Below, one piece after another: positions 10,207-60,737 of a stretch of 64,000 nucleotides of DNA. Numbering within the stretch: the first letter of the stretch is position 1; each line of letters starts with the position of its first letter. The position numbers were made by a program, and so were the translations under genes. The notes under the pieces were generated by a model. It was not told the DNA's origin, did no database searches, and was given only the letters and a program-made list of their open reading frames with translations. This stretch comes from Haladaptatus sp. ZSTT2 (GTDB taxonomy: Archaea; Halobacteriota; Halobacteria; Halobacteriales; Halococcaceae), in assembly GCF_037081775.1 (NCBI RefSeq), contig NZ_JBAMHQ010000001.1:1116001-1180000 (forward strand). The letters run 5' to 3'.

Positions 10207-11211
10207 TTAGTTTTCGGGGTCTGCGTTCGACCCACCGGTGAGGAGGACGAACAACAGGCCGAGGACGGCGACGAGGCCGACACCGGCGGCGAGGACGGCC
10301 TTGCCCTGTCCGTTCTCGCGGATGCCGTTTTGGGTCGCCCACAGAATGCCAGGGTAGTGGCGGGCGCGGGCGTTCGACCGGACGAAGTACTGGAGACCGG
10401 TCATGAGGTTGCCCTCGTTGAGGTAGAGTTTGGCGAGCACGAGGTTGTGGCTGCCGCGCACGTCGTGGCCTTTTGCCTCTAAGTCGTCGACCACGTCAGC
10501 GAATTTTTCAAGATATTTCTCGTCTGCCTCGCGGACGATGTCCGCGGGCGGGTCGCCCGATTCGTGGCGGACCACGAGCGGTTCTGCGACGTGGGCGAGT
10601 TTCCCCTCGCGCAGGACGCGCATCAGGAACTCGGGGTCTTGGAAGCGTCGGAAGGTGGTGTCGAAGCCCTCGATTTTCCGCGCCACGTCCGTCCGAACCA
10701 TGAGCGTCGAACCCGCGCTCGTGTGCAGCCGGTCTGCGAGTACCTCTTCTACGAGTTCGTCGCCCCCTTCGGTCGGGGTTTCGGGGTCGGATTTCGACAG
10801 GAATGAGGCGGCGAGCGAGCGCATCGGGCCGCTCGTTCCCTTCGTCTTCATGTCCACGTCACAGTAGACCGCCACCCAGCCGTCGCCTTTCGATTCGAGA
10901 TAGTCCACCTGTCGCTCGAGTTTGAGCGGGAGCCACTCGTCGTCCGAGTCGAGGAAGGCGACGTATTCGCCTTCTGCGTGCTCGATGCCGGTGTTTCGCG
11001 CGGCGGGTGCGCCCTGATTTTCCTCGTGTTCGATGAACTTCACGCGGTCGTCGTCGTAACCGGTGACGACCTCCTTCGTGTCGTCCGTCGAGCCATCGTC
11101 CACGACGAGCAGTTCGAAGTCGTCGTAGGTCTGGGCGAGGACGCTATCGATGGCGTGGGTCACCTCTTCGCTGCGATTGTAGGTTGGAATGACGACGCTT
11201 ACGGTGGGCAT
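10207..11211 (-). CDS. GT2 glycosyltransferase with C-terminal membrane anchor
   Basis: A 334-residue protein. The GT-A domain begins VSVVIPTYNRSEEV and has LLVVDDGSTDDT near 35-46 and AFLDSDDEW near 90-98 (the DXD-type metal site). A single hydrophobic segment lies at about 305-325. It belongs to the large family of polymer- or glycoprotein-modifying GT2 enzymes; donor and acceptor are unknown. It has its own YTTA-N8-ATAATAA promoter at 11239-11260, about 30 bases before the ATG, so a leaderless transcript is likely. Confidence 0.87.
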   Translation of the reverse strand: MPTVSVVIPTYNRSEEVTHAIDSVLAQTYDDFELLVVDDGSTDDTKEVVTGYDDDRVKFIEHEENQGAPAARNTGIEHAEGEYVAFLDSDDEWLPLKLERQVDYLESKGDGWVAVYCDVDMKTKGTSGPMRSLAASFLSKSDPETPTEGGDELVEEVLADRLHTSAGSTLMVRTDVARKIEGFDTTFRRFQDPEFLMRVLREGKLAHVAEPLVVRHESGDPPADIVREADEKYLEKFADVVDDLEAKGHDVRGSHNLVLAKLYLNEGNLMTGLQYFVRSNARARHYPGILWATQNGIRENGQGKAVLAAGVGLVAVLGLLFVLLTGGSNADPEN

Positions 11212-11261: not shown

Positions 11262-11837
11262 TCAGTCTGAGCGAGCGTAGCGCACCAGGTCCGCGAGCAC
11301 GGGCGCACCGTCGTACACCCAGAGGGCGATGACGCCGAATACGAGCGACAGTTCGAAGACGACCAGCGGCGTCAGGCCTTGGGTGGCGAGGTGGTGTATC
11401 CACCGGAAGAAGTACACCGCTGCCCGCCCGATGAGCCCGCCTTGGTCGGTGCTGTAGGCGGGCAGCGAAACGACCGGCCAGAGCACGCGGCCGACGATTA
11501 ACGGCTCGTTGAGCAACAGTGGCTCGTAGATGAGGTCGCCCACGAGGTGTGAGAGGTGCGCGATGGTGTACGCCGCCACCAGCCGACGGTTCCGGCCGTT
11601 CGTGAGCAACAACGCCCCCGCGAGCAACGGGCCCATGATGAGGATGGAGTGCATGACGCCGTGGCCTGTCGGCGTGAGGCTGAACGTCCAGCTCAGGGGC
11701 TTATCGACGAGGTCCGGTGCCTGTGAACCCAGTGCGACGAGGAACGCCGCGGCACCGTCGGGTGAGCGACGGTAGACGGCGTGGGCGAAAAGCGAGTACA
11801 ACAGGTACGCGAAGGCGAGGTGTTCCCACGGCCACAT
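11262..11837 (-). CDS. Membrane-bound metal-dependent hydrolase-like protein (DUF457/YdjM type)
   Basis: A 191-residue protein with four or five hydrophobic segments. It carries the His/Asp pattern of the YdjM/DUF457 family: WEHLAFAYLLY near the start, GSQAPDLVDKPL near 38-49, TGHGVMHSI near 57-65 and HLSHLVGDL near 94-102. These residues suggest a metal site in the membrane. The substrate is unknown. It overlaps the DUF1616 gene by one base and is probably the last gene of the flippase-DUF1616 operon. Confidence 0.72.
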   Translation of the reverse strand: MWPWEHLAFAYLLYSLFAHAVYRRSPDGAAAFLVALGSQAPDLVDKPLSWTFSLTPTGHGVMHSILIMGPLLAGALLLTNGRNRRLVAAYTIAHLSHLVGDLIYEPLLLNEPLIVGRVLWPVVSLPAYSTDQGGLIGRAAVYFFRWIHHLATQGLTPLVVFELSLVFGVIALWVYDGAPVLADLVRYARSD

Positions 11838-12895
11838 TAGCTTGGGCGTGCGTAAACGGTCTGCGTGGATAGCTGTTGTGACGTGCCCGCGGGCGGCTCG
11901 ATGTCGCCGCCGCCGTTTACCGTCACCCAGCGGTGGATAGAGCGGTAGGCGTTGTCCGCGGATGGGTTCTCGGGTACGTCGCCCTTGTAGAGGTAGAACG
12001 CCATCCGGAGGTTCCCGCCGGTCAGCGTCGGCTCGACGGTGACGTTCTGGGTGGCGTTCTCACCGTCTGCAACCGTTATCTCTTGGCGGACGAGTTCCTC
12101 TTCTTCGACCACCTGTAACTCGCCGTTGTCGGCCTGCTCGACGCGCTGGAGTTCGCCAACCACGGTGTAGGTCACCTCTTCACCCTCGTGGTTGTTGATG
12201 CCGATTGGCACGTCTGCGGGCTGTCCGGCGGCGAACGGGCCGGGAGCCTCTTCTGACTGGCCGGTCGGCACGGAGGCGTAGTAGAGCGCCGAGAACTCCT
12301 CAGACTGCGGCGGGACGGTGGCCGCAAATCCGGCGCTCGCGGCGACCAGCAGCAGGCTGACCGCGAGCAGGATGGTCGGGAGTTTCGACCGACTCGAACC
12401 GAGCGACCCGGTGTGGCTCGCGGAGTCGGTGCGCATCCCGAACGACGGGCGATACTGGCGCTCTGCGGGCAAAAGAAGGCGGAGCACGAGCGCCACCACT
12501 GCCAACAGGAGCGTGAGCGCGCTCACGCCGAGGAGGATTGGCGTGACTTCGAGCGCCCACACGAAGTTCAGGACGAAGACGACGAACGGCACGAGCGCGA
12601 GGCTGGCGACGATAGACAGTCCAATGCGCTCGACCGGGCTCATTCCGTAGTTGCTGGGGAGCTTTCGCAGTCCCTTTTTTGGGTCGTCGCGGTCGTGGGT
12701 TCCTTCTTCTGGAATGCGACCGGGATAGAGGGCAGAAATCATCGCATAGCCCGGCAGCACCAAGATAAGCGGCAGCCCCACGAGGATGCGGAGGGTTCCA
12801 CTCACGTCCGCGACGAGGATGGCGGCATCGGCAAACAGCGTCAGCGCCACGACCAGCAACAAGTCCGTCGGAAACGGCGTTCTCGACTCGCTCAT
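11837..12895 (-). CDS. DUF1616 family membrane protein
   Basis: A 352-residue protein. The N-terminal DUF1616 core has four hydrophobic segments (two in 10-50, two in 90-145), including LPLILVLPGYAMISALYPG. A fifth segment is at about 172-192, then an extracytoplasmic beta-rich domain of 150 residues. DUF1616 proteins recur in archaeal surface-polysaccharide loci; their role is unknown. Its ATG overlaps the flippase TGA (ATGA), so it can be translated from that transcript. It also has its own promoter element 27 bases upstream (12920-12941), inside the flippase end. Confidence 0.8.
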   Translation of the reverse strand: MSESRTPFPTDLLLVVALTLFADAAILVADVSGTLRILVGLPLILVLPGYAMISALYPGRIPEEGTHDRDDPKKGLRKLPSNYGMSPVERIGLSIVASLALVPFVVFVLNFVWALEVTPILLGVSALTLLLAVVALVLRLLLPAERQYRPSFGMRTDSASHTGSLGSSRSKLPTILLAVSLLLVAASAGFAATVPPQSEEFSALYYASVPTGQSEEAPGPFAAGQPADVPIGINNHEGEEVTYTVVGELQRVEQADNGELQVVEEEELVRQEITVADGENATQNVTVEPTLTGGNLRMAFYLYKGDVPENPSADNAYRSIHRWVTVNGGGDIEPPAGTSQQLSTQTVYARPS

Positions 12896-15195
12896 TGATT
12901 CTTCACAGACTCCTCTCTACCTTTATTATCGGCCCCGTAAGCGGCCTCGTCGCCACGCCGTATGCGACGCAGTCCCACTCCTAAAGTGGCGAGACCAATC
13001 CCGGTTGGGACGCTAAACCCGGCCGTCGAGTTCGTACTGGACGTCGTTGACTCCGTCGTCGAACTCGTCGTAGAGGACGTGGTTGTCGTGTTCGTCGATT
13101 CAGTTGTTGACGCCGTCGTCGTATTCGTCGTGGTGGTTGTCGTCGAGGTTGTCGTCGAGGTTGTCGAAGTCGTGGTCGAAGTCGTCGTGGTTGGCTCTGC
13201 AGTTGTCGTGGTCGTCGTTGTGGTCGGCTCCGCGGTCGTCGTCGTGGTCGAAGTCGTGGTTGCAGTCGTCGTTGGGTCTTCAGTGGTCGGGTCGTCGGTT
13301 GGCTCGTCCGTTGGTTCATCCGTCGGTTCTGCGGTCGTCGAGGTGGTCGTAGCAGTGGCTGTCGTGGTTGCGGTCGTCGTCGAGGCTGTCGTACCGCCAC
13401 CGTCGTCTGTTTGCGTGGTATCCTGCGTGGTCGCTGCGGTTGACGTGGCGGTCGTGCCGTCGGTTTGCGTCGGCGTCTGTGTGGCCGCCGTACTCGTATC
13501 GTTGGTCTGGTTCAGCCCGGGCACGTTCACGTCGGGGCTATCGACCGGGCCGAGGTCTGGCCCCATGACGGCGAAGGCAATTCCCGAGATGAACAACACC
13601 ATCCCGATGAACACGAGGATGTACTGAAGCGAGTCGTTCCCGAACAGTGACCCACTGCTAGCATAGCGATCGCGCAGACGAACGACGGGCTCGGCGATGC
13701 TGCCGGGCAGCGCAGACGAGAGGATGTCGAGCACCTCACCGATGCCGAGTGCGCCCGTGACGAACGCGAAGGTGAGGAAGATGACGAGGCCGACCGGCGG
13801 CACGACAAGGAGCGTCACGATGTCGCCGGAGACGAACGGCACGAGGTTCTGTGGGATGTAACTCGGCAGCGCGAGGATGGGGATGGCCGCGAGGCCAGTC
13901 GTGAGCGCGATACGCCCGAGTCGGGCGTCAGAGAGCGGGTTGAACCCGATTTTGCGCGCAGACCAGATATGGAACACGAACATCGACGCGTAACCGGTGC
14001 TCGTCGCAATCGCCGCGCCGTTCATCCCGAACCGTGGGATGAGGATGATGTTCAACACGAGGTTGATGAGTGCGGCGCTTGCCGTGGCGATAATCGGCAG
14101 TTTCAGGTCGCCTTTCCCCTGACCAATGGCGAGGATGGGGCGCGCAACGGCGAACCCGAGCGCACCGGGAAGGAGGAGCAAGAGTGGCTCGACGGCGGGC
14201 GTCGCTTCCTTGCCGAAGTACACTGGCACGGCGATGTGGGCAATCGAGTACAACCCGAGCGCCATCACGGCGGTGAGCAAAAGGGTGTACCGCGTCGCGC
14301 GGGCGGCGAGTTCTGAAATCTGCCCCGTCCGGTTCTGTGACCAGAGTTTCGACGTCGAGTGGACGAACACCATCTGAATCGAGGTGGGGACGAACCACAG
14401 GAACTCAGCGAGTTTGAGCGCCGCCTTGTAGTGGCCGACCTGCGTGCTGTCGGTGAGCGCCCCAAGCAAGAGGATGTCGATGTGATAGAGCGACATCAGA
14501 CAGAAGATGAGCACAATCGAAAGCGAGTTGAACGCGACCAGTTCGCGCCACGGGAAGCCCCGTGGAGTGCGCCGAACCACGTTCACCAGCGTGCTCTTGC
14601 GGTGGACTACGATGAAGCCGAGAAACATCACGAGCGCACTGCCGAGTACCTGCCCGGCGAGCGCGCCCATGACCCCGTAGCCGTAGTAGACCGCGGGGAT
14701 GGCGATGACGACGAACGTCACTTCATACAGAATTTTGAGCGGCTCAGAGTAGCGTTCGAGGCCGAATCCCATGAGCGTCCGTCTGACGAACGTCCGAAAC
14801 TGCGCGACGATGACGAGCACCGCGAGAACGTAGAAGTACGGAACGAAATCCGCGCCGAAAAAGCGTGCGACGAGGCCGGTTTCTGCGAGGAGGACGAGCA
14901 CGCCCGCACCGAACAGGGCAAGCACGAGTCCCATGCGAAAGTAAAAGCCGATGACGTAGCCACTCCAGTTGTCGATGGAGCGGTCTTCGGGGATGTATTT
15001 GCGAACCCCGTCTGCGACCCCGGAGCTCACGAAAATCATGAACATCATGAAAATCGAGAGCACGAAGGCGTACTCACCGTACTGGGCGGGGCCCATGAGA
15101 CGATAGAGGATGGGCGTCGTCGCGAGCCCAAGGACGAGGATGAAAACCTTCGACCCGAAAATCGAGAGAAAACCGCTCAGAATACTACGTTGCAC
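12892..15195 (-). CDS. Wzx-like polysaccharide flippase with Thr-rich stalk and C-terminal anchor
   Basis: A 767-residue protein, far longer than the usual 400-500 of the family. Residues 1-480 form 12-14 membrane segments of the oligosaccharide flippase type (start: SGFLSIFGSKVFILVLGLA; RLMGPAQYGEYAFVLS). This family moves lipid-linked oligosaccharides across the membrane. A further segment is at about 525-545. Residues 565-720 are almost entirely Thr, Ser, Asp, Glu and Pro, a stalk likely to be O-glycosylated and extracytoplasmic. A last hydrophobic stretch (FSVPTGIGLATLGVGL, then RRIRR) resembles a sorting or anchoring tail, but is not a clear PGF-CTERM. The start is GTG 15195; a 28-codon mini-ORF overlaps it upstream. 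Confidence 0.85.
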   Translation of the reverse strand: MQRSILSGFLSIFGSKVFILVLGLATTPILYRLMGPAQYGEYAFVLSIFMMFMIFVSSGVADGVRKYIPEDRSIDNWSGYVIGFYFRMGLVLALFGAGVLVLLAETGLVARFFGADFVPYFYVLAVLVIVAQFRTFVRRTLMGFGLERYSEPLKILYEVTFVVIAIPAVYYGYGVMGALAGQVLGSALVMFLGFIVVHRKSTLVNVVRRTPRGFPWRELVAFNSLSIVLIFCLMSLYHIDILLLGALTDSTQVGHYKAALKLAEFLWFVPTSIQMVFVHSTSKLWSQNRTGQISELAARATRYTLLLTAVMALGLYSIAHIAVPVYFGKEATPAVEPLLLLLPGALGFAVARPILAIGQGKGDLKLPIIATASAALINLVLNIILIPRFGMNGAAIATSTGYASMFVFHIWSARKIGFNPLSDARLGRIALTTGLAAIPILALPSYIPQNLVPFVSGDIVTLLVVPPVGLVIFLTFAFVTGALGIGEVLDILSSALPGSIAEPVVRLRDRYASSGSLFGNDSLQYILVFIGMVLFISGIAFAVMGPDLGPVDSPDVNVPGLNQTNDTSTAATQTPTQTDGTTATSTAATTQDTTQTDDGGGTTASTTTATTTATATTTSTTAEPTDEPTDEPTDDPTTEDPTTTATTTSTTTTTAEPTTTTTTTTAEPTTTTSTTTSTTSTTTSTTTTTTNTTTASTTESTNTTTTSSTTSSTTESTTSSTNSTAGFSVPTGIGLATLGVGLRRIRRGDEAAYGADNKGREESVKNQ
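12920..12941 (-). promoter_or_regulatory. YTTA-N8-ATAATAA promoter element
   Basis: Minus strand: CTTA, CGGGGCCG, ATAATAA, AGG. The box ends 27 bases before ATG 12895 of the DUF1616 gene. The element lies inside the last codons of the flippase, so an internal promoter within the operon is likely. Confidence 0.75.
13035..13500 (-). repeat. Low-complexity Thr-codon tract
   Basis: ACN-rich triplet repeats that encode the Thr-rich stalk of the flippase, with units such as TDEP, AEPTTTTT and TSTTT. Slippage or recombination within the tract would change stalk length without a frameshift, because the unit is a codon. Confidence 0.85.
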
Positions 15196-15351: not shown

Positions 15352-16266
15352 CTATGCGTAGCCGAGGTCTTGCAGGCGCTCTTGAACCACGTCTGCGGTT
15401 TCGTCGCGCGTCGTAGTTTCGGAGTCGTCACCGACGGTTATCTCCTTTCGCTCTCCGTTCTGGTAGGTGTGCCACGGGATGGTGGTGAGTTCGGGCGTGT
15501 GGAGTTCCGTCGGGTGGCCGTACTCCTTCATCGGAATGGGCGAGGAGCGCTCGCCGATCATCTCGGCGTGGTCTGCGGTGACGACGGTCTTGCCTTGCAG
15601 GGTTTCTAAGAGGTCTTCGACGATTGGCATACAGAGGTCGAAGTTCTCCTCGTAGGCCTGCCAGAGGATTTCGTCGTCGAGCGTCACCTCGCCGTTTAAG
15701 ACGCGATTCCAGAAGTCGAGGCTGTCTAAGTCCATGTGCTTCTGGCCGGTCTCACCGATGAACGGGTAGTGGGGCTGGATGAAGTGGCCGACGATTTTCT
15801 TGTTCGGGTACGTCTCTGCGGCTTGCTTCATGCGCTTTGCCACGGTCTCCGGGCGGACGGTGCGGAACTCATCGTCCCAGCCGTCGTCCTGCCAGATGTG
15901 TTCGACGGCGTGAAACTGCACGTCCACGCGATCGCGTTTTCGGTAGAGCTGCGGATTCGCGGTGATGTACACCGTGTCGCGCAGGTCTGCGCCGTCGAGA
16001 TACGTGTCGAGCCACTCGATGGTGGAGGACACTTTCGATTTTTTCTGTTCGAGCGTCCCGGGGAGGGTGTGGCGCTGGGCGAAGGTGTCGTAGCGACACG
16101 CATCGAGGATGATGAGGTTGTCCCAGTCCTCTTCGAACATCTCGACACCGTCGTTTTTCCCCTTCTTCTTACGCGAGCGGTAGTAGTACTTGTTCAGCTC
16201 ACGGACGACCAGATGCGGTTCACTCAGGCCGCGGCGGATGCGGTTCGTCAGTGCGGACTTCTGCAT
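15352..16266 (-). CDS. Sulfatase/alkaline-phosphatase-fold hydrolase
   Basis: A 304-residue protein. LIILDACRYDTF (about 48-59) holds the metal-binding Asp and a Cys at the place where sulfatases carry the modified nucleophile, but the canonical C-X-P-X-R is absent. VVTADHAEMIGER (about 230-242) and a following EYGHPTELHTPEL supply the Asp-His and His metal ligands. Members in surface-glycan loci transfer or remove sulfate or phospho-groups. It has no signal peptide, so its side of the membrane is unclear. It has its own promoter element at 16290-16311 with ATG 26 bases downstream. Confidence 0.8.
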   Translation of the reverse strand: MQKSALTNRIRRGLSEPHLVVRELNKYYYRSRKKKGKNDGVEMFEEDWDNLIILDACRYDTFAQRHTLPGTLEQKKSKVSSTIEWLDTYLDGADLRDTVYITANPQLYRKRDRVDVQFHAVEHIWQDDGWDDEFRTVRPETVAKRMKQAAETYPNKKIVGHFIQPHYPFIGETGQKHMDLDSLDFWNRVLNGEVTLDDEILWQAYEENFDLCMPIVEDLLETLQGKTVVTADHAEMIGERSSPIPMKEYGHPTELHTPELTTIPWHTYQNGERKEITVGDDSETTTRDETADVVQERLQDLGYA

Positions 16267-16334: not shown

Positions 16335-17897
16335 TTAGCTGGTGTCGTTGCCGTACATTCGCAGGCCATAACAGCCTTTGTCCCAGACACCGCGTTTGAT
16401 ATCGCTTTTCTTGATGGTTACGTCAGAACTCTGGTCGTTTAGCTTGACAGCCTCGTAGCCGGTCATCGACTGGGCGTCCATGCCCTCCATCCAAATGCCG
16501 GAGCCGTTTACGACGAACGGGATGTGCGAGGCGGTCTGTTTGCCCTTATATACGAGCGTGTTGTCGCCGTTCAGCACCATCGCCCGGCGGTAGTGTTCGC
16601 CCTGTTGGTTGAAGTTCACGACGCGGAACTCACAGTCGTTGCGGTTGCAGCGCAGAGCGTGTCGCCACACGTCGCCCTCTGCGTCGCCGGAGATATCGAC
16701 GTACTCACAGAGGACTTTCCCGGCGTCAGAGCCGTTGATTTGGATGGCGTTGCCACCACGTTGTATCTCGATGTCTGAGCGGATGATTTTCGTCGGCCCG
16801 GCGCTCGACTGGACGACGACGCCGTGGCAGGTTCTGTCGCCGACGGTCACGTCGAGATGGCTGAGGAAGGCGCTGTCACAGTCGTTCATCACCGTGAGCG
16901 CGTGGCCGTTCGGTTTCTCCAGTCGAATCGTGGTGTCGACCACGTTCATGTTGGGACCTTCGTCCAGCCGAATACCCCGCTGGTTCTGGTTTTCGTCGTG
17001 TTGCTGGTCTACGACGATGGTCGCGTCGGTAACGAGACAGTCGTGGCCGCCGAGGCGGATGCTCGCCGCCTCGCTGTTGGCGTAGCGCCCGCCGTTTACG
17101 ATGACTCGACCGTTGGTGAGCGCGTAGAGGCCGTTGTCCGGCCAGTCGTCGAGTTCGCAGTCTTTGTACTCGATTTGGCCTTCGTGGTAGCGCGTGGACA
17201 TCAGCCCGGAGGGGCCACGCCAGATGTCGCCCGGTGCGTTCTCGGAGAACGCGCCGCCGTAGTTCGCGCGAAAACGCTTTACCATGCCCTTGCCATCCGG
17301 GGAGAGAATGTCGAACAGTCCCGGGCCGTAGGTGCCGCTGTCGTGGCGGCCGACGACGGTGATGTCGTCGACGAACAATCCGTCTCTGACCTGTGCTTCG
17401 ATGACGCGAATGCCCGTGTCGTCGGCCCGAAGGTCGACGGCAAACCCTTGGACGCGCAGGTCAACGCCGGGGTCGTAGTTGACGCCCAAACGGAACAGCC
17501 GATACTGTGGCCCATCGAAGTTGTGGTAGTTCGCGGGGACGAGCGTGGCGTCGTCGCCTACCAGCCCGAAGTTCCGGAAGTCAGTAAAGCGGAACTGTGA
17601 GTCCATGAAGTACCGCCCCGGTGGGAACTTGATGAGCGTGTCATTCGCCGCATACTGCTCTAAAATCGGCGTGATGGACTCGTTGCCCGAGTTGTCCGCA
17701 CCGCCGTCGTCGACGATGTCGATGACGCGGTCGTACTGGTCATCGACGTGCGAGGCTTCGGCTTTGCCCGACGCCAGGAGTGTGGCACCTGCCGCCGTTG
17801 CGCCGACTGCCCCAAGAAAGGTTCGTCTGCCAAGGCTGGTGGAGTCATTCGATTCACGGTTCGAGTCTGTCGGGGGAGTCGTGTCGCGCGTGGTCAT
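16335..17897 (-). CDS. Tat-exported right-handed beta-helix protein
   Basis: A 520-residue protein. The Tat signal LGRRTFLGAVGATAAGATLL lies at residues 23-42, with a cleavage region near KAEASH. The mature part has repeated short strands and turns (for example VIVNGGRYANSEAASIRLGG and LSHLDVTVGD) typical of pectate-lyase-like parallel beta-helices, with the family's early GNESITPILEQYAANDTLIKF segment. Such proteins bind or cleave polysaccharides. Catalytic residues cannot be assigned. Its place beside the sulfatase-fold gene suggests a role on the exported polymer. Its upstream region lacks the YTTA element. Confidence 0.82.
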   Translation of the reverse strand: MTTRDTTPPTDSNRESNDSTSLGRRTFLGAVGATAAGATLLASGKAEASHVDDQYDRVIDIVDDGGADNSGNESITPILEQYAANDTLIKFPPGRYFMDSQFRFTDFRNFGLVGDDATLVPANYHNFDGPQYRLFRLGVNYDPGVDLRVQGFAVDLRADDTGIRVIEAQVRDGLFVDDITVVGRHDSGTYGPGLFDILSPDGKGMVKRFRANYGGAFSENAPGDIWRGPSGLMSTRYHEGQIEYKDCELDDWPDNGLYALTNGRVIVNGGRYANSEAASIRLGGHDCLVTDATIVVDQQHDENQNQRGIRLDEGPNMNVVDTTIRLEKPNGHALTVMNDCDSAFLSHLDVTVGDRTCHGVVVQSSAGPTKIIRSDIEIQRGGNAIQINGSDAGKVLCEYVDISGDAEGDVWRHALRCNRNDCEFRVVNFNQQGEHYRRAMVLNGDNTLVYKGKQTASHIPFVVNGSGIWMEGMDAQSMTGYEAVKLNDQSSDVTIKKSDIKRGVWDKGCYGLRMYGNDTS

Positions 17898-18253: not shown

Positions 18254-19030
18254 ATGGATACGGATAGACTTCTCTCTGCGGTCGTTGCGGTGCTTTGCAT
18301 CCTCTCGGTTGGCTTCGCCTCGACGACGCTCGACGATTCGGTGACCACGAAACCGGAGGACGTCATCAATATCGACTATGACAAACTTCCTATAAATCCA
18401 CAGGAAGCAGAGGAGTTCAAGGGCGATGACGTGACGACTGCAGACCCGGAGTCCACCGGCACGCCCACCGCAGAGAGTAAAACAGAAACCCAAGGGAACA
18501 CAGCGACACCGGGCGAGGGTGATGCGGAGCTAAGCGATCCACAGGCCGGCGGTGCAAACCAGCAGACAGAAGCGACGGGACAGGGGTCGAGTCCACAGGT
18601 TGTCGGAGAAAGCCTGCTCGACAAATTCCTCTCGTTTCTCATGACGCTCTTGCCGTTCGTGCTCATCGGTGCCGTCCTCGCGGTCGCGGTAAAAAAGCGC
18701 GAGACGATAGCTGGCTGGCTCGAACACGCGGAGCGAAACGAACCCGTTTCGACCCAACCGACCGTGGTTGCCCGCCCCGAAAACGAAGTGTATCAAGCGT
18801 GGCACGAAGTCGCGAGCGCGATTCCGTACGTCCAACGCAAGGCGATGACGCCCGACGAAGTCGCGGCCGCGCTTCGGGACGAAACCGACCTCGACGATGA
18901 GCTACTCATGGAGCTGACGAAGACGTTCAAACGCATTCGCTACGGCGGTGCGCCGGTGACCGACGACGACCGCGCGCTCGCCGCACGGGTAGAAGACCAA
19001 CTCACCGCACAGCGGGTGGCTGAGAAATGA
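18254..19030 (+). CDS. DUF4129 family membrane protein
   Basis: A 258-residue protein: N-terminal hydrophobic signal/anchor (7-23), an extracytoplasmic Thr/Glu/Gln-rich region (about 55-118), a membrane segment at about 125-148, then a cytoplasmic domain (155-255) with the DUF4129 pattern AWHEVASAIPYVQRKAMTP and FKRIRYGG. DUF4129 proteins occur next to DUF58 and MoxR genes across prokaryotes and are thought to serve surface assembly or protein maturation. First gene of a four-gene operon with ATGA overlaps. Confidence 0.8.
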   Translation: MDTDRLLSAVVAVLCILSVGFASTTLDDSVTTKPEDVINIDYDKLPINPQEAEEFKGDDVTTADPESTGTPTAESKTETQGNTATPGEGDAELSDPQAGGANQQTEATGQGSSPQVVGESLLDKFLSFLMTLLPFVLIGAVLAVAVKKRETIAGWLEHAERNEPVSTQPTVVARPENEVYQAWHEVASAIPYVQRKAMTPDEVAAALRDETDLDDELLMELTKTFKRIRYGGAPVTDDDRALAARVEDQLTAQRVAEK

Positions 19031-19629
19031 GCTTCCGTCGTGTCGTCTTTGGCGTCCTCGGCGTTGGCATCTTCATGCTCGCGTACCTCGCGACGGGCAA
19101 CCCCGACCTCGCCGGCGCACTTCCGGGCGAGGCGTTGGTTTCGGCGCTCGGGAACGACTACCTCGTGCTCGTGGTCGTCGCCGTCCTCGCCGCCGTAATC
19201 ACCCTGTTCGTGACGGTTTCTGCGCGAAACGGCGCGCGCGACCACACCACGCCGCCGGAAGCAGAACAGGTCACGGAGGTTCCGCTCGCCGGTGACATCT
19301 ACGACGACCTCATCTCGAACTCGCCGCTGTGGGCGCTCACCCACCGTGAGGCGTGCGACCTCGCAAAACAGCAACTGACCGCGACGGCCGTGCGAGTCGT
19401 GCAAGCAGAGCGCGGGTGTACCCAGACAACGGCCAAAGAACAGGTCGCCCGCGGGACCTGGACCGACGACCCCTTCGCCGCCCGCTTCCTTGGGAGCGAG
19501 GCCCCGCCGTTAGAACCCGAACAGTGGCTGACCACGGCCATCAGGCTGGAGACACCAACCCAACGGGGTGCCCGCCACGCGGCGACCGAACTCGTCGCCC
19601 GCGCCGGAGGTGACGGCCATGCTGCGTGA
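19027..19629 (+). CDS. Membrane protein of the DUF58/MoxR operon
   Basis: A 200-residue protein with two N-terminal membrane segments (about 4-22 and 38-58), then a cytoplasmic domain of about 130 residues containing ALTHREACDLAKQQL. Its ATG overlaps the DUF4129 stop, and its end overlaps the DUF58 start by 11 bases. Haloarchaeal DUF58 operons regularly carry a protein of this size and layout (DUF7269-like). Function unknown. Confidence 0.68.
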   Translation: MSFRRVVFGVLGVGIFMLAYLATGNPDLAGALPGEALVSALGNDYLVLVVVAVLAAVITLFVTVSARNGARDHTTPPEAEQVTEVPLAGDIYDDLISNSPLWALTHREACDLAKQQLTATAVRVVQAERGCTQTTAKEQVARGTWTDDPFAARFLGSEAPPLEPEQWLTTAIRLETPTQRGARHAATELVARAGGDGHAA

Positions 19630-20872
19630 GACGAAACGCTGGCGGGGCGTCACCGCAATCAGTCTCCTCACCGCGATGGGCGGACTCCTCGCGAACCGGC
19701 CGCTGTTGTTGCTCGTTGCCACCGTTGGCATCGTCTACCTCGTCTACCCGCGCGTGACCGGCACGCCAGACGGAACGCTCGAACTCGATCGGCGGCTGAG
19801 CACTGACACGCCCGGCCACAACGAAGTGGTCGACGTGACGGTAACGCTCAGAAACACCGGCTCGTCACTCCTGCCAGACGTGCGCATTGTAGACGGCGTC
19901 CCCGAGACGCTCACCGTGACCGCGGGAACGCCCCGCCACAGCGCGACGCTGCTCCCCGGCAGAGAGACCACGTTCACCTACTCGATTACCGCAAAGCGCG
20001 GCGCACACCCGTTCACGCCCGCAACGGTCATCTTGAACGACATCGCGGGCGCACGCGAGGTGGAGACGAACGTCGCAAGCGAGACAGAACTGCGCTGTGA
20101 CGCAGAGGTCTCTGAGATGCCACTTCGCCAGCAGACAACCCAACTCTACGGGCGCGTGCTCACCGCAGACGGCGGCAGCGGCGTCGAGTTCCACCAGACC
20201 CGCGAGTACCGCCCCGGCGACTCCATCCACCAGATCGACTGGAACCGCCACGCGCGGACGGGCAAGCTCTCGACCATCGAGTTCCGCCAAGAGCGCGCCG
20301 GTCGCGTCGTCGTCCTCGTCGATGCCCGCGAACAGTCCTACCGACGGGCAACGGAGGACGACCCACACGCGGTCGCATACGCGCGCTACGCCGCAGAACA
20401 GCTGTTCGAGTCGCTGCTCGCCTCGCGTGACCAGGTCGGCCTCGCGGTCGTCGGCCGCGAGTTCGCGTGGCTCTCCCCGGGCGCTGGAAACGACCACCGC
20501 ATCCGCGGGAAAACCCTGCTCGCAACGTCGAACAGCCTCGCTCCGCGGCCACCCGAGCGAGACGCCTTCGACGACGCCCAGTTCACCGAGCTGCGCACCC
20601 AACTCACGGCCTCGACGCAGGTGGTCGTCCTCTCACCGCTGGTCGATGACGACATCGTGAGCGAGGTCAAACGCCTCGACGCCCACGGCCACCGCGTAAC
20701 GGTGCTCAGCCCGTGTGTCACGGGCGGAGACACCCTTGGCGGAGAAGTCGCCCACATAGAACGCGTCCAGCGGATTCGACAGCTTCGCGCCGGTGAGATT
20801 CCGGTCATCGACTGGAACCCAGACCGGCCGCTTGAAGCCGCCTTAGAGGACATCGGGAGGTGGCGGCTATGA
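19619..20872 (+). CDS. DUF58 family protein
   Basis: A 417-residue protein. Two membrane segments near 12-45 are followed by an extracytoplasmic beta domain (about 50-160), then the DUF58 core with the hallmark EYRPGDSIHQIDWNRHAR near 195-212 and a von Willebrand A-like fold (VVLVDAREQS). I chose ATG 19619 because it starts just before the membrane segment; a longer frame exists upstream. DUF58 proteins are partners of MoxR-type AAA ATPases. Confidence 0.88.
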   Translation: MLRETKRWRGVTAISLLTAMGGLLANRPLLLLVATVGIVYLVYPRVTGTPDGTLELDRRLSTDTPGHNEVVDVTVTLRNTGSSLLPDVRIVDGVPETLTVTAGTPRHSATLLPGRETTFTYSITAKRGAHPFTPATVILNDIAGAREVETNVASETELRCDAEVSEMPLRQQTTQLYGRVLTADGGSGVEFHQTREYRPGDSIHQIDWNRHARTGKLSTIEFRQERAGRVVVLVDAREQSYRRATEDDPHAVAYARYAAEQLFESLLASRDQVGLAVVGREFAWLSPGAGNDHRIRGKTLLATSNSLAPRPPERDAFDDAQFTELRTQLTASTQVVVLSPLVDDDIVSEVKRLDAHGHRVTVLSPCVTGGDTLGGEVAHIERVQRIRQLRAGEIPVIDWNPDRPLEAALEDIGRWRL

Positions 20873-21552
20873 GCGCACCCGTGCGGAAACCAACCCGCAT
20901 CGCAAGCGTCGCGGCGGTGCTCGCAGGCGCGCTCCCGGCGTTTTTCATCGTCGAGTTGCCCGCGATTCCGACCGCGCTCGTGTTCATCGTCGGGGGACTG
21001 TTCGTCGCCGGGCTTGGCGACGAGGCACGAACCCACGGCTATCGCTGGCTCGGTCACGGTGTCGTCGCCATCGGCGTGCTCGTCGGCCTCGTCGGCGTCG
21101 CGCGCGGCTTCGCCGCCGCCCCGAGTCCGCGGTTTATGGTCGTCGTTGGTCCGACACTGCTCGGCGCGTGGGTGCTCGGGCTTGGCGTCATCCCGTTGCG
21201 AAAGGGGTCGCGTTGGCTCGTCAAAGCGGGGAGTTTCTTCCTGCTCGCAGGCGTCGTCATGGCTGGCGTCGTCCAGATGGGCGACCTCGGCACGTTCCTG
21301 CTCGCGACCATCGCGCTCGTCGTCGCGTGGGACGCAGGCGACCACAGCATCACCCTTGGCCAGCAACTCGGCCGAGGCGCACAGACCGCACAGGTCGAAG
21401 TGACGCATCTCGTGGGCACCGTCGGGGCGGGAGTCATCGCGTATCTCGCCACAAAAGCAGTCGATGGGTTCGGGACGCCCGGCGTCCCGTTGTCTGCGTT
21501 GCTCGGATTACTCGTCGCGGTGCTGGTGTTGCTTATCGCGTTGCATAGGTAA
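20869..21552 (+). CDS. Polytopic membrane protein (DUF7519-like)
   Basis: A 227-residue, strongly hydrophobic protein with about seven or eight membrane segments. Its ATG overlaps the DUF58 stop (ATGA). Conserved-looking polar parts are RKPTRIASVAA at the start and WDAGDHSITLGQQLGRGAQT in the middle. Haloarchaeal DUF58 operons often end with such a protein. Function unknown. Its last 20 bases overlap the 3' end of the convergent MoxR gene. Confidence 0.68.
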   Translation: MSAPVRKPTRIASVAAVLAGALPAFFIVELPAIPTALVFIVGGLFVAGLGDEARTHGYRWLGHGVVAIGVLVGLVGVARGFAAAPSPRFMVVVGPTLLGAWVLGLGVIPLRKGSRWLVKAGSFFLLAGVVMAGVVQMGDLGTFLLATIALVVAWDAGDHSITLGQQLGRGAQTAQVEVTHLVGTVGAGVIAYLATKAVDGFGTPGVPLSALLGLLVAVLVLLIALHR

Positions 21553-22498
21553 TCGTCGGCACGTCCACCGACGACAGCACCGCCTCGATAACGTCGTATT
21601 TTTCCACGCCGTTCACCCGCGCGTCAGCGGTGAGCACGATACGGTGGTCGAGGACGGGGTGGGCGACGCGCTTTACGTGTTCTGGCGTGACGTACTCCTC
21701 GCCGTCGAGGACGGCGCGAGCGCGCGCGGCCTCGAACAGGCGCTGGGTCGCACGCGGCGACGCCCCGACGGTGACGCGTTCGTCTTCTCGCGTCGCGCGC
21801 GTGAGGTCGACAATGTAGTCTTGGACGTCTTTTTGCACGCGCACCTGCTCTGAGACGCGCTGAAGGTCGAGCACCTCCTGTGGCGAGCAGACGGTGTTGA
21901 CGGTTGGGCTCCGGTCTTCGCGCGATTCACGGCGGGCGAGCAGTTCGCGTTCGCCCTCGCGGTTTGGGTAGCCCATGCTCGTCTTGATGATGAATCGGTC
22001 TTTCTGCGCCTCGGGGAGCGGGAACGTCCCCTCGTTTCGCTCTGCGGGGTTCTGCGTGGCGATAACGAAGAAGGGGTCGGGGAGTTTGTGGGTCTGGCCG
22101 TCGACTGTCACCTGTTTTTCCTCCATCGCTTCGAGCAGCGCGGCCTGGGTCTTCGGCGAGGCACGATTGATTTCGTCTGCGAGGACGACGTTCGCGAAGA
22201 TGGGGCCTTTCTTGAACTCGAAGTCCCGGTTTTTCTCGTTGAAGACGTGCGTGCCAGTCACGTCGGCCGGGAGCAAGTCGGGGGTAAACTGGATGCGCGA
22301 AAACGAGAGTCCAAGCGCCGTCCCGAGACTCCGGGCGGTGAGGGTCTTTCCGGTGCCGGGAACGTCTTCTAAGAGGACGTGCCCGCGGGCGAGCAGTCCG
22401 GTGAGGACGGTGTCTAAAAACTCTTGTTCGGTGATGACCGCATTTCCAATCGTGTCGGTCACGCGACGGCTCAACTCGTATGCCTCGGCAACTCGCAT
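21533..22498 (-). CDS. MoxR-family AAA+ ATPase
   Basis: A 321-residue protein. Walker A is DVPGTGKTLTAR (about 44-55), Walker B is VVLADEINRASPKTQ (about 106-120), sensor 1 is FVIATQNPAE, and a C-terminal lid carries VTVGASPRATQRLF. MoxR ATPases act as chaperones for metal-centre insertion or for assembly of surface complexes together with DUF58/VWA proteins. It faces the DUF4129-DUF58 operon tail-to-tail but has the same promoter type (22521-22543), so both halves are probably co-expressed. Confidence 0.93.
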   Translation of the reverse strand: MRVAEAYELSRRVTDTIGNAVITEQEFLDTVLTGLLARGHVLLEDVPGTGKTLTARSLGTALGLSFSRIQFTPDLLPADVTGTHVFNEKNRDFEFKKGPIFANVVLADEINRASPKTQAALLEAMEEKQVTVDGQTHKLPDPFFVIATQNPAERNEGTFPLPEAQKDRFIIKTSMGYPNREGERELLARRESREDRSPTVNTVCSPQEVLDLQRVSEQVRVQKDVQDYIVDLTRATREDERVTVGASPRATQRLFEAARARAVLDGEEYVTPEHVKRVAHPVLDHRIVLTADARVNGVEKYDVIEAVLSSVDVPTITYATR

Positions 22499-22928: not shown

Positions 22929-23771
22929 TTAGTTTTCGATTGCGGCTTCGATTTGGGCGCGCGTCTTTTCTGCGTCCACGGTCGGACGAACCATCGTCCC
23001 GTCCTCGAAGACGAGGCGAGGCACCGTAGAGACGTTGACTTCGGCTGCGGCTTCGGTCGTGGCTTCCACATCTCCGAGGTAGGTCTCTTGGTCGAGTGCC
23101 GTGGTGAACGCCTCGACGTCTGCGATGCCCGCTTCTTCTGCGAACACTTTCATCTGTTCTTTGGTACCCCAGTCGAAGCGTTCCTGTGGCTGGTTTTTGA
23201 ACACGTACGCGAAGTACGTCCAGTAGTTCTCGGGGTCGGTGTCCCACGCCGCAAGCCCGGCCTGTGCGGAGAGTGGGGCGTCCTCACCGAGGAACGGCTC
23301 GCCACCGAGGAACGCGAGCGCGCGGTACTCGATTTGAAGGTCGCCGGGTTTGACGTACTCGCGGACGATTTCGTCGAGGAAGCCGCCAACGGCGAACTCC
23401 TGGGTGTACGGGCACTTCCAGTTCCCGTAGAACGTGATTTTCGCGTCGGCGTCACTCGACCCCATGACCGCGTACGTGGAGTCGGTGTCTTCTACGGGCG
23501 CATCCATGATCGCACCGGCTGGTTTCACGATTTCCTCGCTCTTGCGTGTGACTGCCTGCGTGGAGTCGCCGTTGCCCTCGTCCGGCGACTGGTCGATGTT
23601 TTCGGCCGTCGTCGTCGCTGTGGTCTGCTGGCTTTCGGCGGCCGTCGTGGTCTGTTGTTCTTCTTGGCTGTCAAGTGCATTGTCCGTGAGGCTCGCACAG
23701 CCTGCAAGGCTGAGCAGCGCGGCGCTACCGGTCAGCTGGAGGATTCGACGTCTGGATTTTTTCTCTGTCAT
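22929..23771 (-). CDS. DsbA-like thioredoxin-fold lipoprotein
   Basis: A 280-residue protein starting at ATG 23771, 26 bases after the promoter box (a longer frame would run into the promoter). RRRILQLTGSAALLSLAGC gives an export signal with lipobox, followed by a Thr/Gln-rich linker to about residue 65. The thioredoxin-fold domain has ITFYGNWKCPYTQEF near 112-126 and a cis-Pro loop VSTVPRLVFEDG near 245-256. The active site reads CPYT, so the second Cys of the usual CXXC is missing. It may act as a reductase- or chaperone-like protein at the cell surface. Confidence 0.87.
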   Translation of the reverse strand: MTEKKSRRRILQLTGSAALLSLAGCASLTDNALDSQEEQQTTTAAESQQTTATTTAENIDQSPDEGNGDSTQAVTRKSEEIVKPAGAIMDAPVEDTDSTYAVMGSSDADAKITFYGNWKCPYTQEFAVGGFLDEIVREYVKPGDLQIEYRALAFLGGEPFLGEDAPLSAQAGLAAWDTDPENYWTYFAYVFKNQPQERFDWGTKEQMKVFAEEAGIADVEAFTTALDQETYLGDVEATTEAAAEVNVSTVPRLVFEDGTMVRPTVDAEKTRAQIEAAIEN

Positions 23772-23794
23772 ATTCCGTAGTGACAGTGCTACCC

Positions 23795-23816
23795 CCATTA
23801 TTATCCGTCAGCTAAG
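23795..23816 (-). promoter_or_regulatory. YTTA-N8-ATAATAA promoter element
   Basis: Minus strand: CTTA, GCTGACGG, ATAATAA, TGG. The box ends 26 bases before ATG 23771 of the DsbA-like gene. Confidence 0.78.
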
Positions 23817-23937: not shown

Positions 23938-23959
23938 AACTCGGGGACGGAACTTGGTT

Positions 23960-24784
23960 ATGACCGGGACCTATCCGACCCGCAGACGCCTGTTGTTGGC
24001 GTCCGGGTCGGCGCTCACCGCCGCACTTGCGGGGTGTGCGTCACAAGGAGGTGGCGACGGCACCACGACCGACACAGAATCGGTCGCCGATGCCTCGGTA
24101 AATGCACAAACGGCCACGCAGACGGCCACGAGCGACACCGACAGCGCAGCAGAAAGTCAGACCAACGCCACAGAGACGATGACACCGGACCCCGCGTCGT
24201 TCGACGGCGAGTCGGTGACGTTCACCACAGACGGCGACGCCGAGATTCAGGGCACTCTCTATGGCGACGGCGACTGCGGCGTCGTCATGGTCCCACAAAC
24301 TAACTTCGACCGTGAAAGCTGGCGAGAACAGGCGCAGTTGCTCGCCGCGACCGGGCACGCGGCACTCCCCATCGACGAAGGTGACGAGCCGCCCGCAGCC
24401 GTCCTCGCCGCGATGGCCTACCTGAAAGAAGCCGTCGGCGTCTCGAACGTCGTGCTCATTGGCGGCAGCTCCGGTGGCGAGGCGGTCGTTCGCGCAAACG
24501 CACAGGCAGAAGACGGCGCGGTCGCTGGCGTGATGGGCATCTCCACCGCCGGTGGCGGCGAGGTCGCAGGCGACCTCCAAGGGCGAAAGCTGTTCATTGT
24601 CGGAAAAGACGACGACAAGCGCTTCGTCGATACCGCAAAACAACTCCACGAGAACGCCCCCGACCCGAAACGCCTCGTGATTCTGGACAGCGACGCCCAC
24701 GCCCAGCGCATTTTCGACTCACCTCACGCAGACACCCTCACCGACCTACTTCTCTCGTTCGTCGAAGAGTCCTGCGGCACTTAG
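23960..24784 (+). CDS. Alpha/beta-hydrolase lipoprotein (Tat-exported)
   Basis: A 274-residue protein. RRRLLLASGSALTAALAGC is a Tat signal with lipobox; a Thr/Ser/Ala-rich linker follows to about residue 75. The hydrolase core has GVVMVPQTNFDRESW, the nucleophile elbow IGGSSGGEAV (G-X-S-X-G, about 170-179), FIVGKDDDKRF (likely acid) and SDAHAQRIF (likely His). It may cleave esters at the cell surface. ATG 23960 is favoured by the promoter distance. Its stop overlaps the stop of the convergent acetyltransferase by 4 bases. Confidence 0.82.
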   Translation: MTGTYPTRRRLLLASGSALTAALAGCASQGGGDGTTTDTESVADASVNAQTATQTATSDTDSAAESQTNATETMTPDPASFDGESVTFTTDGDAEIQGTLYGDGDCGVVMVPQTNFDRESWREQAQLLAATGHAALPIDEGDEPPAAVLAAMAYLKEAVGVSNVVLIGGSSGGEAVVRANAQAEDGAVAGVMGISTAGGGEVAGDLQGRKLFIVGKDDDKRFVDTAKQLHENAPDPKRLVILDSDAHAQRIFDSPHADTLTDLLLSFVEESCGT

Positions 24785-32638: not shown

Positions 32639-32768
32639 TCTCGGCTTTTTTATCGAGTTTCATAGGGACAGTCGAGTGGGAACACGGTTTATCGGATGGT
32701 ATCGGCAAACACACCCCACGGCGTTTAGCCACCGGATAAGGAAGTGGCCACACCCACAAGGGAGGGCA

Positions 32769-33395
32769 ATGACACACAAGAGTCGCCGTCGATTCGTACA
32801 GCTTGCAGGCAGCGCACTGGCAGTCGGACTCGCTGGCTGTTCGTCGCAAGGTGGCGAATCAGAAGGTGACGAAACGACCACCACCGAAGAGGCCACAGAA
32901 ACAACGAGCGCGGCGACCACCACGAGCCAAGAGACGACGGACGCAGAAACGACCACTGAGGCGACGACCGAAGACGAACACGAAAATGACAGCGACAACC
33001 CCGATGAGCACGAGACGCCCGCCGAGGGTGAAGAGGAGATACACCAACACGGGACACTGTATCTCGAAATCGATGGCGAACGAGTTGACTTCTCACGGGA
33101 GAAGTTCTTTGGCGGCCCGCTTGAGTTCCACTTCCACGAAGATGGCAAGCAGTACGAGTGGCACAACGAGAAGTCCTACATCACGCTCGCGGAGGCGCTC
33201 AACTACATCCCGGACATCTCTTATGAGAATAGCGGCAGCGACCACATGCTCACCGTCGAAGGGACGACCTACGACACGACTGAGGGCGCGGACATCACCT
33301 TCGCAGAGCGCGACACCGAAATCGATCCGACCACCTACGAACTCGAAGAACTCGACATCTACTGGGTGAAAGTCGAAACCGACGCGAGCAGCTAA
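32769..33395 (+). CDS. Tat-exported lipoprotein with Thr/Glu-rich linker
   Basis: A 208-residue protein. SRRRFVQLAGSALAVGLAGC is a Tat signal with lipobox. A low-complexity Thr/Glu/Asp linker spans about 28-95. The C-terminal domain (100-205) is rich in aromatic and acidic residues (HQHGTLYLEIDGERVDFS; FHFHEDGKQYEWHNEKSY); several His may bind metal. No family recognised. Confidence 0.72.
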   Translation: MTHKSRRRFVQLAGSALAVGLAGCSSQGGESEGDETTTTEEATETTSAATTTSQETTDAETTTEATTEDEHENDSDNPDEHETPAEGEEEIHQHGTLYLEIDGERVDFSREKFFGGPLEFHFHEDGKQYEWHNEKSYITLAEALNYIPDISYENSGSDHMLTVEGTTYDTTEGADITFAERDTEIDPTTYELEELDIYWVKVETDASS

Positions 33396-59066: not shown

Positions 59067-60737
59067 CTACGCCGCGGTTCCCGCGGCAGACTCGTCTGAG
59101 TTATCGGTCGTCTGTGAGTGGGATTGTGCGACCTTGTAGATGAGCACGCCCTCGTTCTCGTAAACGAGGTCGTAGCGCGGAGCTTCGTACAGCGAGTCTT
59201 GCATCCCGAGGTCCGTGTGGCGTTCTTTCCCGCGAACCGTGTAGTCGCCTTTCGGGACGTAGAGGTAGTCAGGCTGGCGCTCACCGAAGGCAAGCAATTG
59301 CGTGACACAGCTTGCGCTGCCACAGTTCGAGATGGCCTTGTAATATTCGACCTCCCAGTAGTAGGTGTGTGAGGTCGTCCATTCAACCCCCCACGGCCCG
59401 ACAATGATGGTCCTCTCGGTGAACAGGGGTACCCACTCTGCGGTGTCGCCCATCACGACGAACGTGGCATCCTGTGGCGTGTTCGACTGCATCCACTGCA
59501 TGGCATCGCGGTCGTGGTCGTCCATCGTTGCTGGTTGGGCTGCGCTGTGATCATACTCCGTCTGGAGCGTGCTCGTGGCGAAGGCGACGCCCGTCCCAAC
59601 CGCGGTGAGCATGACAAGCACGACGAGCGCGAGCGACACACCGCGATAGAGGTCGCCGCGCGACGTGCGCTCGGTGAGGAACGTTTTGACCGCGGGCAAC
59701 ACGCCATCGTAGACGAGGAAGGCAACGAGCATCGCGCCACCGACGAACAGGAAGCGGTCTTTCCCGATGAGGTAGCTCGCGCCAATCGCCCAGATGGCGA
59801 GGAAATACCGCTTTTTCCAGAGCGCGTAGCCCGCGGCGACGAACACGGCGAGGTAGAACACCGATATGATGTCCTTCTCTTTGATCGGGATGATGAACTG
59901 CCGGTAGATGCGGTGCCAGCCACCGCCGAGACCGTGGTGGGTGCCAGACGCCTGCAGGAAAATTTCTGGCCCGTGGGTGGCGAAAATCTGGAGCCACCAC
60001 GGCGCGGCGATAAGGATGCCACCGCCCGCGACGATGGCACCGTACACGAGCCCGTAGAACGACCGGTCGAACACGGCGTAGGCAAGCAGGTAGCTAAAGG
60101 CGAAAAAGACGGTGTACGTCGGGTGGGTGAGCACTTGGATGCCGAACAGCGCCATCCCGGGCACAATCCACCGACGGTCGCCCGTCTGGAACAGCCGAAT
60201 CCCGGTATATGCTCCAACCAGCGCAATCGTGAACGCTGGAGCGCGGACGATGCCGCCGGCCGAAAGGTGCCACCGGAGCACCGCTGGCGCACCCGCGAAG
60301 ATGATGGCCGCGAGACCAGCCTGTCGTTTCGAGTCGAGTAGGTGGCGCGCGAGGAAGTAGTACGGCACCATCAGGAGCGTCACGACCGCCCCGGGGATGA
60401 AGCGCGTGAGCGTGATGGCACCGACGCCGAACAGGTCACGAATCACCGCGTAGACGTAGAACATGAACGGCGGATACGCGAACGGGACCCCCGCCGCGGT
60501 GTACCCCGGAATGCGTTCGGGGAGCGCGTAGCCGTTTGCGACAATCGCATCGGAGATGGCGATGTACAACCCGCCGACATAGGCCGGGTACTGGTGAGTC
60601 GCGAGGTAGGACACGTAGACTGTGGCCGCTGCGAAGACAGCGAGAGTTAGCCACATTACGTCTGTCCACGTCACTGTGTGGTGACGCCAGTCTGGAAGCA
60701 GCGAGTGACGGGTGCGCGAGCGAGGCGGTGTTGACAT
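59067..60737 (-). CDS. GT-C-like membrane glycosyltransferase
   Basis: A 556-residue protein from ATG 60737. About 11 membrane segments from residue 25 to 390, then an extracytoplasmic domain of about 140 residues. The first large loop contains YVGGLYIAISDAIVANGYA and the acidic residues placed as in PMT/ArnT-type enzymes. Such enzymes use lipid-linked sugars at the outer face. Donor and acceptor unknown. Its promoter is the distant tenth copy of the YTTA-N8-ATAATAA element. TTG 60836 would lengthen it by 33 unlikely residues. Confidence 0.75.
   Translation of the reverse strand: MSTPPRSRTRHSLLPDWRHHTVTWTDVMWLTLAVFAAATVYVSYLATHQYPAYVGGLYIAISDAIVANGYALPERIPGYTAAGVPFAYPPFMFYVYAVIRDLFGVGAITLTRFIPGAVVTLLMVPYYFLARHLLDSKRQAGLAAIIFAGAPAVLRWHLSAGGIVRAPAFTIALVGAYTGIRLFQTGDRRWIVPGMALFGIQVLTHPTYTVFFAFSYLLAYAVFDRSFYGLVYGAIVAGGGILIAAPWWLQIFATHGPEIFLQASGTHHGLGGGWHRIYRQFIIPIKEKDIISVFYLAVFVAAGYALWKKRYFLAIWAIGASYLIGKDRFLFVGGAMLVAFLVYDGVLPAVKTFLTERTSRGDLYRGVSLALVVLVMLTAVGTGVAFATSTLQTEYDHSAAQPATMDDHDRDAMQWMQSNTPQDATFVVMGDTAEWVPLFTERTIIVGPWGVEWTTSHTYYWEVEYYKAISNCGSASCVTQLLAFGERQPDYLYVPKGDYTVRGKERHTDLGMQDSLYEAPRYDLVYENEGVLIYKVAQSHSQTTDNSDESAAGTAA

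Follow-up and report, generated by a model that had tools for sequence, protein, structure and literature searches.

In a 64,000-nucleotide (nt) stretch of the Haladaptatus sp. ZSTT2 genome (contig NZ_JBAMHQ010000001.1, positions 1,116,001 to 1,180,000; hereafter the window), the gene at 12892-15195 on the minus strand encodes a 767-amino-acid (aa) membrane protein in which a flippase core is followed by an extra transmembrane (TM) helix, TM15, and a long Thr/Ser-rich stalk. We consider it probable (about 0.6) that this protein is a flippase for the repeat unit of an exopolysaccharide (EPS), whose extracellular, disordered and probably glycosylated stalk forms a brush beneath the surface layer (S-layer), for spacing or docking. 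Flippases, Thr-rich stalks and flippases with 15 TM helices are each known already, and the novelty is their combination and its recurrence across Halobacteria. The combination of a flippase with a Thr-rich stalk in haloarchaea was not found in the literature searched, outside which most subscription journals lie.

Flippase core, fifteenth helix and stalk

The gene is a single unbroken open reading frame (ORF) with a GTG start, and its product consists, in this order, of a 14-TM MurJ/Wzx-type core, TM15, the stalk and a weakly hydrophobic, Arg-flanked tail. The core with its cytoplasmic linker (residues 1-511; 13663..15195, minus strand, as for all parts of this protein) gave Pfam matches spanning residues 6-335, to PF01943 (Polysacc_synt, 1.5e-14, 54.5 bits versus a cut-off of 28.2) and PF13440 (Polysacc_synt_3, 1e-13, 51.6 bits versus a cut-off of 23). 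The AlphaFold2 (AF2) model of the core has a predicted local distance difference test score (pLDDT) mostly above 90. When this model was used in Foldseek, MurJ (7wax, E 6.8e-9, target TM-score 0.78) and WzxE (9g9p, E 1.1e-8, target TM-score 0.76) were found; they were reached by the fold search only, and a sequence-profile search of the PDB gave no match at E<=0.01. The match to MurJ and WzxE and the positive-inside loops are those of a two-lobe MOP fold with 14 TMs and the N-terminus inside. Comparison of sequence and model places the core in the MOP superfamily as a Wzx/MurJ-type polysaccharide transporter (PST) flippase, which agrees with the sequence-only reading of this stretch, a Wzx-type flippase with an added Thr-rich stalk resembling that of a surface glycoprotein. 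The protein shares Pfam families and the two-lobe fold with MurJ and WzxE, and the 14 TMs with MurJ, and it differs from them in TM15 and in a 200-aa low-complexity tail that is predicted to be extracellular; its identity to solved structures is about 15-20%. From the family and the locus, the core would be expected to transport a lipid-linked glycan.

TM15 (residues 526-544, 13564..13620), a strongly hydrophobic helix ahead of the stalk that the sequence-only reading did not mention, has a mean Kyte-Doolittle (KD) hydropathy of 2.76, and AF2 places a helix at 522-543 with a pLDDT of about 55-66. Family-averaged hydropathy gave the same picture, 14 core TMs plus TM15. Lys and Arg together number about 3.5 per loop after even-numbered TMs, the N-terminus included, versus about 0.7 after odd-numbered ones. 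Because the even loops are rich and the odd loops poor in Lys and Arg, and the core has 14 TMs, both the N-terminus and the linker after TM14 are predicted to lie inside; TM15 would then exit and switch the side of the C-terminus. A stalk outside the cell is well supported by this predicted topology. A helix count of 15 has also been assigned to mycobacterial MviN (Rv3910) (PMC11898655). MviN and the window protein are alike in being MurJ-type flippases with a 15th TM past the core and a C-terminal part placed outside. MviN carries a folded pseudokinase ahead of TM15 and a folded domain behind it, whereas in the window protein TM15 is flanked by a 45-aa linker and the disordered stalk, with no folded domains.

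The stalk (residues 557-725, 13021..13527) is 169 residues long, of which 90 are Thr (53%) and 19 are Ser (11%), far beyond chance; its presence had been correctly recognized, with a somewhat shorter extent of about 155 residues. Thr is encoded here by all four ACN codons, and the G+C content of the stalk (61.7%) shows no shift from the rest of the gene (61.0%). AF2 pLDDT is below 50 across the stalk, indicating disorder, and five N-X-S/T sequons are present. Thr-rich disordered regions are typical for archaeal S-layer proteins (PMC8559796), and haloarchaeal S-layer proteins, that of H. hispanica among them, bear O-linked disaccharides (PMC9943897, PMC8241124). The stalk of the window protein is probably glycosylated too. 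The ideas of the sequence-only reading on this point, namely stalk glycosylation, coupling of export to a glycosylated layer and the stalk as a substrate, are not established. Short spacers rich in Thr are a common feature of this genome: three lipoprotein-like secreted proteins encoded in the window (22929-23798, minus; 23954-24784 and 32676-33395, plus) carry one right behind the N-terminal Cys.

Behind the stalk follows GFSVPTGIGLATLGVGL (residues 726-742, 12970..13020), 17 residues containing Gly and Pro, and then the Arg cluster RRIRR (residues 743-747, 12955..12969) and 20 polar residues. An extra C-terminal anchor had been proposed for this end. A hydrophobic end does exist, but its KD mean is 1.36 and AF2 predicts no helix; it may return to the membrane, and this is a weak suggestion. 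The sequence of the segment is conserved in two congeners and not elsewhere, and no tail common to other proteins of the genus was found.

The two congeners (G001 and G002) have the same single-frame architecture, and their cores are 95% and 90% identical. Identity in the tail after the stalk is 85% and 72%, while the stalk itself diverges and, by one definition, is 166, 146 and 174 aa long in the three congeners, differing between species. In a codon comparison, the ratio of nonsynonymous to synonymous substitution rates (dN/dS) was about 0.08-0.09 in the core and 0.21-0.30 over the 42 codons of the tail. Translation of the tail in this frame, and its maintenance, follow from these values.

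Recurrence and separability of the module

To define recurrence, 90 members of the flippase family were gathered from genome searches, a GTDB scan and annotated plasmids, and a tail was counted as long at >=60 aa and a terminal segment as hydrophobic at KD >=1.2 over 17 aa. Comparison of homologues for the stalk, which the sequence-only reading had suggested, revealed a comparable Lys/Arg-poor tail in 33 of the 90, so that the architecture is not unique to the window gene and is found in several haloarchaeal families. TM15 is present in 64 relatives and a long tail in 37, of which 33 follow TM15 and four occur without it. All 33 tails after TM15 have at most 4% Lys/Arg and are rich in Thr/Ser or Asn/Asp, and all but one contain N-X-S/T sequons (1-17 per tail in 32/33). 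Their repeats vary widely (TP, TETETP, DNTTAD, GNESDDGGSIGD, NESDDGGSIGDG), and the tails of L109 and L106 are rich in Asn, Asp, Gly and Ser with many sequons. In the four long tails without TM15, Lys+Arg make up 11-18%, sequons are absent and the end resembles a coiled coil. They belong to one clade of Natrialbaceae (L099, L108, L111 and L113), where the long charged tail is presumably cytoplasmic. A stalk of the present type was found in none of the 26 relatives lacking TM15 (stalk versus no stalk, 33:31 with TM15 and 0:26 without; Fisher's test, 5e-7, uncorrected for kinship). On the 90-row tree, at least 15 changes are required to explain the five architectures. A change of this kind is seen in Natronococcus and relatives, where L103, L104, L107 and L110 stop just past TM14 (GQFGSSLR-stop) and TM15 and a tail rich in Asn, Asp and Gly are present in their sister L109; judged from the sequences, these parts were recently lost or gained. 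A terminal hydrophobic segment occurs in about 14 of the 33 stalked relatives, often with Arg last (Haloferax GRSAR, Haloarcula GRTNPRDPR). No stalk was found at the ten loci of distant flippase paralogues that were inspected.

A close parallel is Haloferax mediterranei E6P09_RS17120 (WP_231512970.1, 851 aa, plasmid pHME505), which also has the core, TM15, a T/N-rich stalk and a terminal hydrophobic segment, in surroundings like those at the window, with glycosyltransferases (GTs), beta-helix, DUF1616 and YdjM genes nearby. Its core is 44% identical to that of the window protein, its stalk has 17 sequons and its terminal segment is more strongly hydrophobic. H. mediterranei E6P09_RS17120 thus offers a genetically tractable test protein.

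In two related metagenome-assembled genomes (MAGs), L060 and L084, the core ends with GGYDE-stop and the overlapping ATGAGTGA opens a second ORF (L060:9517-10305, 262 aa; L084:9517-9897, 126 aa). This ORF encodes a TM, a Thr/Pro/Ser-rich stalk and a terminal TM with RRRR, and the DUF1616 gene is next. When the TM of the split ORF was aligned to TM15 of the fused proteins, the best scores were 62-71, whereas the maximum against any core segment was 33-36. The stalk works as a module, because this TM aligns with TM15 and the stalk stands as a gene of its own. A stalk in another frame of the stalkless relatives, sought within 900 nt, was found as a separate overlapping gene in L060 and L084 only; other Thr/Ser-rich frames near stalkless flippases were rejected, as they look spurious and are Arg/Ser-rich. 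Sequence comparison among the relatives shows TM15, the stalk and, in part of them, the anchor to be a conserved and separable module, occurring either fused or separate.

Proposed role and alternative explanations

We infer the EPS substrate and the spacer or docking role as follows. The core would flip the lipid-linked sugar unit of an EPS and end in the cytoplasm after TM14, and TM15 would carry the C-terminus outward so that the stalk stands below the S-layer. Dense O-glycosylation of the stalk, with N-glycans at the sequons, would make it a stiff, acidic and salt-stable brush. Such a brush could act as a spacer holding the S-layer away from the exit side of the flippase, or as a dock retaining the emerging polymer and EPS enzymes (the beta-helix protein, the deacetylase and the DUF1616 protein) near the export site, or as both. 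In the window protein, finally, the terminal segment may reach the membrane again, which is the weakest part of this proposal.

Several points weigh against it. Nearly half of the TM15-bearing relatives (31/64) have no stalk, and the stalk is therefore dispensable for flipping. After correction for kinship, the pairs linking stalk and TM15 are too few to reach significance (four pairs, which agree in direction with at most minor exception, p 0.125), and the topology contrast depends on the single clade that combines long tails with the lack of TM15. A Thr-rich stretch is expected to hold sequons by chance, and Thr-rich spacers are frequent in haloarchaeal secreted proteins, so the stalk could be generic. 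No Wzy-type polymerase was recognized beside the gene, the single Pfam Wzy_C match lying about 97 kb away. The topology, the glycosylation and the polysaccharide are themselves predicted, from sequence and model.

The main risk named by the sequence-only reading was that an assembly error or a frameshift had joined two genes, and L060 and L084 do hold the same parts as two genes. Since the identical single frame occurs in two congeners and a single frame in more than 30 independent records, the dN/dS of the tail is 0.2-0.3 and the stop codon of the flippase overlaps the next gene by 4 nt, we regard such an artefact as vanishingly improbable. The Thr-rich tail would be cytoplasmic if the number of core TMs were odd or TM15 were not inserted, and the modest AF2 confidence at TM15 leaves some room for this; the 14 helices with alternating loop charge, the MurJ-like fold of the core and the scarcity of Lys/Arg in tails after TM15, versus its abundance in tails without TM15, make it highly unlikely. 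Another explanation takes the C-terminus as a degenerate archaeosortase signal, at whose AGF or AAF motif ArtA or a related enzyme would cut the stalk for lipid anchoring, as in the S-layer glycoprotein. Haloarchaeal S-layer glycoproteins and PGF-CTERM proteins likewise have a Thr-rich disordered region and then a hydrophobic segment with Arg near the C-terminus, and the stalk, hydrophobic stretch and Arg cluster are ordered here as in the tripartite signal; the genome encodes ArtA (TIGR04125, 316 bits, over the cut-off, at G000:C1:2734241) and has five PGF-CTERM matches elsewhere, and the tails of L064 and L121 have CTERM-like ends. However, AGF or AAF stands in place of the PGF motif, 20 polar residues extend beyond the Arg cluster, the tail sequence is limited to this genus and, going by the title of a reference in PMC8559796, a permuted PGF stops ArtA processing in H. 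volcanii. The PGF-CTERM profile TIGR04126 had no match at E<=5 in the window protein or its congeners, and on this profile result the protein was rejected as a PGF-CTERM/ArtA substrate; unlike PGF-CTERM proteins, it has no signal peptide or ectodomain, and its stalk hangs from a polytopic transporter. We consider a degenerate signal unlikely.

Two further explanations concern what the stalk does. It could be an acceptor or primer, the flipped sugars being moved onto Thr or Asn of the flippase's own tail so that the protein carries the first surface polysaccharide chains. The fusion of the stalk to the flippase of a polysaccharide locus, the dense Thr/Ser and the dense N-X-T repeats in L005, L119, L122, L129 and L130 fit this idea, but no transferase is known for such a step, about half of the TM15-bearing relatives lack the stalk and the tail type of L064 and L121 is nearly sequon-free, so that we think it improbable. 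Somewhat easier to envisage, though still doubtful, is a dispensable low-complexity addition with no specific function, grown by replication slippage once TM15 had put the end outside. Length and repeat composition are highly variable, as this would predict, and the stalk is often absent, with 11 changes counted on the tree; on the other hand, the stalk has been retained over several families, its four Thr codons are mixed with no single expanded triplet, the segment after it is under purifying selection and two MAGs retain the module as a separate gene.

We therefore prefer a flippase with an extracellular spacer or docking stalk, and the add-on looks like a real part of the haloarchaeal slime-making machinery. 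As a more tentative extension, haloarchaeal EPS flippases may repeatedly have gained a mucin-like extracellular module (TM15, glycosylated stalk and an optional membrane return), also found standing alone, with which the transporter docks to the S-layer or nascent polysaccharide. If so, the module would belong to the export machine as an envelope spacer and would serve a purpose comparable to that of co-polymerases or periplasmic adaptors in bacteria. Little is known of the export and organization of archaeal surface polysaccharides, and the EPS pathway of H. hispanica is still unknown according to the AepG paper (PMC9943897); that a flippase carries a recurrent, separable extracellular module suggests a physical connection of export with the side of the envelope where the S-layer lies.

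Genomic setting

The gene order at the window, all on the minus strand, is beta-helix, phosphatase/sulfatase-like, flippase, DUF1616, YdjM and family 2 GT (GT2). A secreted right-handed beta-helix protein with a Tat-like N-terminus (16335..17897; PF13229, 2.1e-5, slightly below the cut-off; weak TAT signal) and a phosphatase/sulfatase-like protein (15352..16266; assigned by eye, with no Pfam match over the cut-off) are encoded upstream of the flippase. Downstream, the ATG of the gene for a DUF1616 membrane protein (11837..12895; PF07760, 1.9e-75) shares 4 nt (ATGA) with the flippase TGA, and the same gene run continues with a YdjM-type membrane protein (11262..11837; PF04307, 1.1e-8), with a GT2 having a C-terminal TM at 10207..11211 (PF00535, 5e-40). 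Among the 68 clustered neighbourhoods, the GT2 cluster was found in 38 and the beta-helix cluster in 42. The phosphatase/sulfatase-like gene is immediately upstream of the flippase in L031-L033, L079, L083, L085 and L095. DUF1616 is also found close to the homologues in H. mediterranei, Halomicrobium and Haloarcula, and in H. mediterranei it is adjoined by a YdjM-type gene annotated as 'metal-dependent hydrolase'. Other neighbours at relatives encode polysaccharide deacetylase, beta-helix proteins, GT2, GT4, GlmM, sugar-1-phosphate nucleotidyltransferase, FkbM methyltransferase, asparagine synthase-like proteins and HTH_10 regulators. By its gene content, the locus looks like an EPS-type cluster and not like an AglB N-glycosylation locus. 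The H. volcanii DUF1616 protein HVO_2173 bears AglB-dependent N-glycans (PMC8241124), and DUF1616-type products therefore face outside. Deletion of an EPS cluster in H. mediterranei has been published (PMC9769981).

AglR and Agl15 of Haloferax volcanii are predicted to deliver dolichol-linked sugars outside (PMC5867893), a role similar to that predicted for the window flippase. Unlike them, however, the window gene does not adjoin AglB, which lies at G000:C1:278776, about 850 kb away on C1; the AglB neighbour is a different, stalkless paralogue (G000:C1:284616, a frame of 526 aa about 3 kb from AglB). An AglB-linked N-glycosylation flippase was rejected for this lack of linkage. Partial STT3/AglB-like matches below the cut-off, distinct from the true AglB, are present in the window or at its edge, at 59466-59846 (minus) and 62978-64000 (plus). 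Beside the EPS flippase, the window also holds a run of DUF4129, DUF7269, DUF58 and MoxR-type ATPase genes (18254-22498), and DUF58/DUF4129 genes flank the homologues in Haloferax gibbonsii and Halorientalis as well.

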